A DNA stretch of 64,000 nt from Rugalucina vietnamica (Eukaryota > Mollusca > Bivalvia > Lucinida > Lucinidae), in NCBI GenBank assembly GCA_964017185.1, contig OZ024880.1:41878329-41942328 (forward strand), read 5' to 3'. Each line of letters starts with the position of its first letter. Within the stretch, counting starts at the first letter, position 1. The position numbers were made by a program, and so were the translations under genes. The notes beneath the pieces were generated by a model. That model was not told where the DNA came from, did not search any database, and worked only from the letters and a program-made list of their open reading frames with translations. Of this stretch, positions 5,659-36,275 are shown piece after piece.

Positions 5659-5771
5659 TCAATACTGCGTTTCCTCGTGTATCAATATATCATGGTAGCT
5701 ATCCGCAGCATTGTTTACTTGCCCAGTCATCTCTGCGGGCGTTATATACTGTGTACCGGGTGTGTCGGAAC
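5659..5771 (-). CDS. Double-flytrap gene exon 13: cytoplasmic tail and stop
   Basis: Encodes SDTPGTQYITPAEMTGQ then VNNAADSYHDILIHEETQY and TGA. Acceptor TTTGTAG, phase 1. Tyr motifs YITP and YHDI are present. YHDI fits a YxxI sorting or SH2-type pattern and is echoed by YDEL in the paralogue tail. The exon is short and its call depends on the phase match to exon 12. Confidence 0.68.

Positions 5772-36275: not shown

Follow-up and report, generated by a model that had tools for sequence, protein, structure and literature searches.

A single-pass receptor with two flytraps

The window analysed here is a stretch of 64,000 nucleotides from the bivalve Rugalucina vietnamica (contig OZ024880.1, positions 41,878,329 to 41,942,328), and its minus strand carries a gene for a receptor with two tandem flytraps of the metabotropic glutamate receptor (mGluR) type, one transmembrane (TM) helix and a short cytoplasmic tail. 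This layout is real and common to bivalves of several orders, and it appears to mark an overlooked receptor family, not a gene-prediction error. We provisionally call the members 'double-VFT receptors'.

The gene model, rebuilt from splice signals and reading frames, has 13 exons (A to M) that run from 36275 down to 5659 over 30.6 kb and encode 1062 amino acids, with a single stop codon ending at 5659. All 12 introns are GT-AG and the phases are compatible throughout. Exons D to I join through five in-phase GT-AG junctions into an open frame of 727 residues, and P0001, the protein nearest to the gene's own in the database, guided the placing of exons B, J, K, L and M, all of which have GT-AG borders of their own and fit in phase. 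The encoded protein starts with a signal peptide, followed by the two complete flytraps (VFT1 and VFT2), the TM helix and a 46-residue tail (residues 1017-1062). A helix predicted by AlphaFold in P0001 (residues 984-1022) agrees with the TM helix of exon L. The open frame at the 3' end extends over 5659-6141 and is in good part repeat (a copy lies at 5943-6100); exon M is 5659-5771 only. The rebuilt model thus bears out the original prediction, made from the DNA letters of this locus, of thirteen exons joining in phase into one protein with two mGluR-like flytraps, one TM segment and a 46-residue tail.

Two other readings of the locus, both of which the original prediction had named for checking, were rejected. 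Two separate genes are very unlikely because the joint between the flytraps sits inside a single exon, E, in which VFT1 ends and VFT2 begins. The other reading places exons for a seven-transmembrane (7TM) domain further downstream, with the tail exon as an alternative end. mGluR-type ectodomains normally precede a 7TM domain; however, P0001, on a transcript-sized contig, has the same stop and tail, relatives of several orders have tails bearing the same motif, and PF00003 is absent from the Pfam lists of all 21 family members described below. Furthermore, tblastn of the window, which holds 5.7 kb downstream of the stop, with two whole mGluRs (matches to E 0.5 listed) returned no 7TM match. An artefact of this kind is already largely refuted, and we give it almost no credence.

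A family of double-VFT receptors in bivalves

P0001 has 1061 residues and is encoded on a contig of 3516 nt, of which 3183 nt are codons. The contig is too small for introns like those of the 30.6-kb gene, and therefore looks like a cDNA. In the first search, whose query left out exon B and exons J to M, P0001 covered 100% of the query with 66% identity, and in the full-protein alignment the match continued through the TM helix and tail to the same stop. Identity between the two proteins is 60% in the signal peptide, 65% in VFT1, 76% in the linker, 74% in VFT2, 36% in the Cys segment and 50% in the TM helix.

Searches with the gene's protein, with a Sinanodonta relative and with an 11-member profile, each scoring about 8,000 word-sharing candidates, found 20 family proteins besides P0001 (21 in total). 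The named sources are eight bivalve species, from Sinanodonta, Potamilus, Mercenaria, Ruditapes, Mactra, Mya, Solemya and Tegillarca. All named members are bivalve, in keeping with the earlier pointer to molluscs, and the other matches of the first search were mGluR-like or other PF01094 proteins. Both flytraps are complete in 18 of the 21 relatives, the partial ones being P0017, P0022 and P0026. The only entries in the precomputed Pfam lists are PF01094, present in all 21, and PF13458, present in some; there is hence no 7TM, kinase or cyclase domain among them. When 8 of the 21 were scanned with hmmscan, each had two PF01094 stretches and none had PF00003, PF07562, a kinase or a cyclase; only short Cys segments remain. 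Thus, the search for relatives with tandem PF01094 and a single TM yielded 18 two-flytrap proteins with no 7TM, kinase or cyclase domain in their Pfam lists. Matches below the Pfam cut-off (GhoS, IF2_N, UL45, DUF2970, DUF948, TM_ErbB1 and ECSCR) were discounted, being TM-like or due to chance. In NCBIfam, P0001 had no match, and P0018 and P0023 had sub-cut-off matches to a bacterial amino-acid binding protein.

A C-terminal hydropathy peak above 2.5 is present in 20 of 22 proteins, the gene's own included, P0015 has two weaker C-terminal peaks (1.74 and 1.92), and P0024 has none. Internal peaks of 1.73-2.02 in seven relatives (P0013, P0016, P0017, P0021, P0022, P0029 and P0030) are taken to be buried flytrap segments.

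The named family entries are called only 'hypothetical', 'uncharacterized protein' or 'receptor ligand binding region' in the database. The proposal that the layout may be undescribed holds in that no description of a double-flytrap, single-TM animal receptor family was found among the open-access papers listed by the literature searches, which yielded instead bacterial BvgS/EvgS-type kinases, Venus kinase receptors (VKRs) and single-flytrap receptors. The gene is, however, not a lone oddity, being one member of a multi-copy family across several bivalve orders.

Origin of the two flytraps

A tree was built from 19 VFT1, 19 VFT2 and 6 mGluR flytraps and rooted at its midpoint. A supported branch separates each of the three groups, VFT1s, VFT2s and mGluRs, from the rest (100/100, 100/100 and 98/93), with long branches flagged for VFT1 of P0023 and of P0027. 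The separate VFT1 and VFT2 clades show that the duplication is ancient, and one duplication before the bivalve radiation explains the tree. In the VFT1 half as in the VFT2 half, Mercenaria P0025 is the sister of the pair formed by the gene and P0001 (96/91 and 98/91), so the two flytraps travelled together. Members occur in Protobranchia (Solemya) as well as in Autobranchia (Tegillarca, Mercenaria and Sinanodonta), so the family predates their split unless genes moved sideways. By the definition used here the R. vietnamica gene belongs to it, with VFT1 and VFT2 each in its own clade, one TM and a tail without a catalytic domain.

Profile alignment with hhalign matched VFT1 to mGluRs at E 1.5e-42 (453 columns, 17% identity) and VFT2 to mGluRs at E 2e-67 (445 columns, 28% identity). 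With the root at the midpoint, these figures only suggest that VFT2 is closer to the mGluRs than VFT1 is. The best PDB sequence match of the family profile was mGluR3 (2e4u, E 4e-82); the frame of exon D alone gave only three weak oxidoreductase matches in PDB by phmmer (E 0.19 to 0.85). The VIA-align rows cover model residues 492-966 (VFT2) only, and the assignment of the VFT1 fold comes from Pfam, hhalign and AlphaFold secondary structure.

The ligand pocket

In the part of PMC2680970 consulted, the mGlu1 contacts for the carboxyl and amino groups of the ligand are Ser165, Thr188, Asp208, Tyr236 and Asp318. Scored with Ser/Thr and Asp/Glu exchange tolerated, the five contacts are kept in 6 of 6 mGluRs, in 18 of 19 VFT2s (the exception being P0031) and in 13 of 19 VFT1s, among them that of Ruditapes P0020. 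The gene's VFT2 has S-T-D-Y-D at these positions and its VFT1 has N-T-D-E-G. Thus, both flytraps are mGluR-like as originally described, but they are unequal, since the gene keeps the amino-acid contacts in VFT2 only.

The side chain of glutamate is held by positions R64, R68 and K389 of mGlu3. At the equivalent positions, Arg or Lys is found in none of the 19 VFT2s (P0025 has one His) and in one of the 19 VFT1s (P0029, Lys at R64; four more have His at one position), and the six mGluR rows vary there as well (R64 basic in five, R68 Arg in five, K389 Lys in four), so that the loss alone does not exclude glutamate. From these residues, the ligand of VFT2 should be an amino acid or a derivative, and is likely one other than glutamate. 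A comparable pocket is described for the VKRs, which are reported to be activated by L-arginine and likewise lack the distal lysine, as far as the consulted part of PMC3703292 describes them.

The loss of the VFT1 contacts, the mobile elements in several introns and the partial look of a neighbouring paralogue would fit a decaying copy that is not a working receptor. However, all exons are open, in phase and canonically bordered over 30.6 kb, and the TM helix and tail match those of P0001, which has the same VFT1 losses. We consider a decaying copy very improbable.

The cytoplasmic tail

The tail is the best-conserved region between the gene and P0001, with 80% identity (37/46), a figure from one pair and 46 residues. 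Y-[IL]-x-P is present in 19 of the 21 family tails, any YxxP in 20 (P0022 has none) and YxxPhi in 12. The slightly wider Y[ILV]xP occurs in 14 of 16 tails against 0.45 expected from shuffles, and in 9 of an 11-member subset with one member per clade against 0.29, figures that flatter a motif chosen after the tails had been viewed. It starts 11-20 residues past the TM segment as cut in 12 of the 14. The original prediction spoke of 'no signalling domain'; this is correct for catalytic domains but incomplete, given the conserved tail and the recurrent motif.

NPR-C, a receptor for natriuretic peptides, has one flytrap, one TM and a short tail without a catalytic domain. The double-VFT receptors share this minimal layout and have no catalytic domain in the Pfam lists, and YHDI, a YxxPhi-type site, is found in the tails of the gene and of P0001. 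An NPR-C-like receptor with a site of this type is nevertheless unlikely in our view: YxxPhi is the looser pattern and less frequent in the tails than Y[IL]xP, NPR-C has a single flytrap and a different tail, and the family profile is closest to the mGluRs.

Y-[IL]-x-P is of the type that may dock SH2 domains. Docking of the phospholipase C-gamma (PLC-gamma) type, known from EGFR and PDGFR, is an alternative for a YxxP-type site. The non-catalytic receptors DCBLD1 and DCBLD2 offer a functional analogy only: their YxxP sites are bound by the SH2 domains of CRK/CRKL once phosphorylated by Src-family or Abl kinases, according to the consulted part of PMC6029619, but they have an unrelated ectodomain (discoidin, CUB and LCCL) and seven or eight YxxP sites instead of one or two.

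A proposed mechanism and its relation to known receptors

The double-VFT receptor is a variant of class C-type receptors and not a new kind of system. Both of its flytraps are homologous to the mGluR ectodomain (PF01094), and VFT2 keeps the five amino-acid contacts. Unlike mGluRs, it has two flytraps and one TM instead of a 7TM domain (PF00003), and lacks the Cys-rich NCD3G domain (PF07562), the loop Cys and the distal glutamate residues. With the VKRs of invertebrates it shares a flytrap, a single TM and an amino-acid-type pocket that lacks the distal glutamate lysine (PMC3703292 and PMC2680970, in the parts consulted); VKRs, however, have one flytrap and a tyrosine kinase, for which the gene has a second flytrap and a 46-residue tail. 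It differs from receptor guanylyl cyclases in that cyclase and kinase-homology domains are absent from the gene and from the 8 relatives scanned. The claim that the layout departs from class C 7TM, cyclase and Venus kinase receptors is therefore upheld.

The reading that fits best, which we hold tentatively and at somewhat less than even confidence, is a type I single-pass receptor that senses amino acids, has VFT1 as a partner and uses its tail as a phosphotyrosine docking site for signalling. Its source would be an mGluR-type ectodomain that underwent tandem duplication and acquired a single TM helix and a short tail. The ligand on which the membrane-proximal VFT2 closes would be an alpha-amino acid or one of its derivatives and is probably not glutamate, while the gene's VFT1, its contacts lost, may serve as a built-in structural or allosteric partner, taking the place that a second subunit has in an mGluR-type dimer. 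Once closed or clustered, the receptor would expose its tail to a kinase of the Src/Abl type, and Y-[IL]-x-P, when phosphorylated, could recruit an SH2 adaptor (of the Crk, Nck or PLC-gamma type) in the manner of the DCBLD1/2 scaffold receptors.

Several points weigh against this mechanism, besides the single pair behind the tail identity, the choice of the motif after the fact and the variation of the mGluRs themselves at the distal positions. The 13 of 19 VFT1s that keep their contacts mean that a silent partner fits some lineages only. In two unionid tails the motif lies at the far C-terminus and ends the protein, so its position is variable; P0022 has no Y-[IL]-x-P, P0021 has YEAP only, and YxxP is a short pattern. 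P0024 has neither TM nor tail, perhaps from an incomplete gene model. On the supposed pairing of VFT1 with VFT2 within the chain, a predicted template modelling score (pTM) of 0.70 gives only a hint of a defined arrangement, and the model of P0020, folded without an alignment, reached a predicted local distance difference test score (pLDDT) of 33.

The ectodomain could instead pair with a 7TM class C receptor and modulate it, without signalling of its own. Its derivation from mGluRs, whose members act as dimers, would agree with such a co-receptor, and the missing loop Cys would suit non-covalent partners; yet nothing indicates a particular partner, and a tail conserved above the ectodomain is unexpected if that tail is idle. 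We regard a co-receptor as quite improbable.

If the docking mechanism is true, bivalves exchanged the G-protein output of class C type ligand sensing for a single-pass output of the SH2 type, and one chain may contain the dimer required by class C receptors. The receptor would then offer a natural test of whether two flytraps in cis suffice to pass ligand closure across one membrane helix. On a broader and more doubtful view, which we advance only as a possibility, the receptor class arose before Protobranchia and Autobranchia split, its duplicated mGluR ectodomain acting as a one-chain pseudo-dimer and its G-protein module having been replaced by the docking tail, giving an amino-acid-gated tyrosine-scaffold receptor.

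Neighbouring paralogue and mobile elements

Table 1. Exons of the double-VFT receptor gene and of the adjacent paralogue (positions in the window)
Feature	Position	Strand	Content	Remarks
Exon A	36035..36275	-	Two consecutive ATG, signal peptide, VFT1 start	Donor GTAAGG, phase 1
Exon B	34181..34288	-	VFT1	Located with P0001
Exon C	19968..20146	-	VFT1	PF01094 E 2e-4, below curated cut-off
Exon D	18576..19373	-	Largest part of VFT1	PF01094 E 1.5e-6, above curated cut-off
Exon E	17462..17645	-	VFT1 end, C-x5-C-x2-C linker, first strand of VFT2	
Exon F	16885..16973	-	VFT2	
Exon G	16203..16401	-	VFT2	
Exon H	15650..15807	-	VFT2, equivalents of mGlu1 S165, T188, D208	PF01094 E 1e-9, above curated cut-off
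Exon I	14481..15233	-	VFT2, equivalents of mGlu1 Y236, D318	PF01094 E 1.6e-16, above curated cut-off
Exon J	13259..13351	-	VFT2 C-terminal strands	Located with P0001
Exon K	12662..12813	-	VFT2 end, short Cys-containing juxtamembrane segment	Located with P0001
Exon L	6353..6474	-	Single TM helix	Hydropathy peak 2.89 at residues 995-1013
Exon M	5659..5771	-	Cytoplasmic tail with YITP and YHDI, stop codon	
Paralogue	37799..46324	+	Partial, VFT1-type, head-to-head with the gene	GT-AG, same phases as exons A-D
Exon A'	37799..38045	+		
Exon B'	38580..38663	+		
Exon C'	39297..39463	+		
Exon D'	45365..46324	+		

No VFT2, TM or tail of the paralogue was found in the remaining 17.7 kb to position 64000; it has either a long intron running past the window or is a truncated or single-flytrap gene. 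Four Sinanodonta matches have the locus tags 022582, 022583, 022584 and 022586, and Potamilus and Mercenaria each have three family matches on equal-sized contigs. Together with the head-to-head paralogue, these neighbouring tags and contig sets suggest a locally duplicating family.

The intron between exons B and C holds a mobile element (23922-32623) whose direct repeats lie 7318 bases apart and agree at all of the 300 bases compared. The repeats enclose one frame of 609 residues without a Pfam match and one of 769 residues with RVT_1 (E 2e-10), and the element's MYTNI motif is reminiscent of Penelope-like elements. A broken non-LTR (long terminal repeat) retroelement in several frames lies in the intron between exons K and L (8469-11801, minus strand), with an endonuclease match in the piece 10564-11280. 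At 51913-55089 on the minus strand is an open LINE-type frame of 1058 residues, with endonuclease and RVT_1 above the cut-off and zf-RVT below it. The Rfam match to SECIS_1 at 46514-46581 on the plus strand (37.7 bits, cut-off 35) lies within a four-copy interspersed repeat (46471-46613) and is probably repeat-derived, not a selenoprotein signal. A SINE-like family of about 250 bases is present on both strands (9485-9740, 12373-12628, 19688-19943, 34285-34540, 35480-35735 and, inverted, 38675-38927); when translated, its copies yield recurrent pseudo-peptides and so inflate open frames, and a related copy is found in the frame adjoining exon M.
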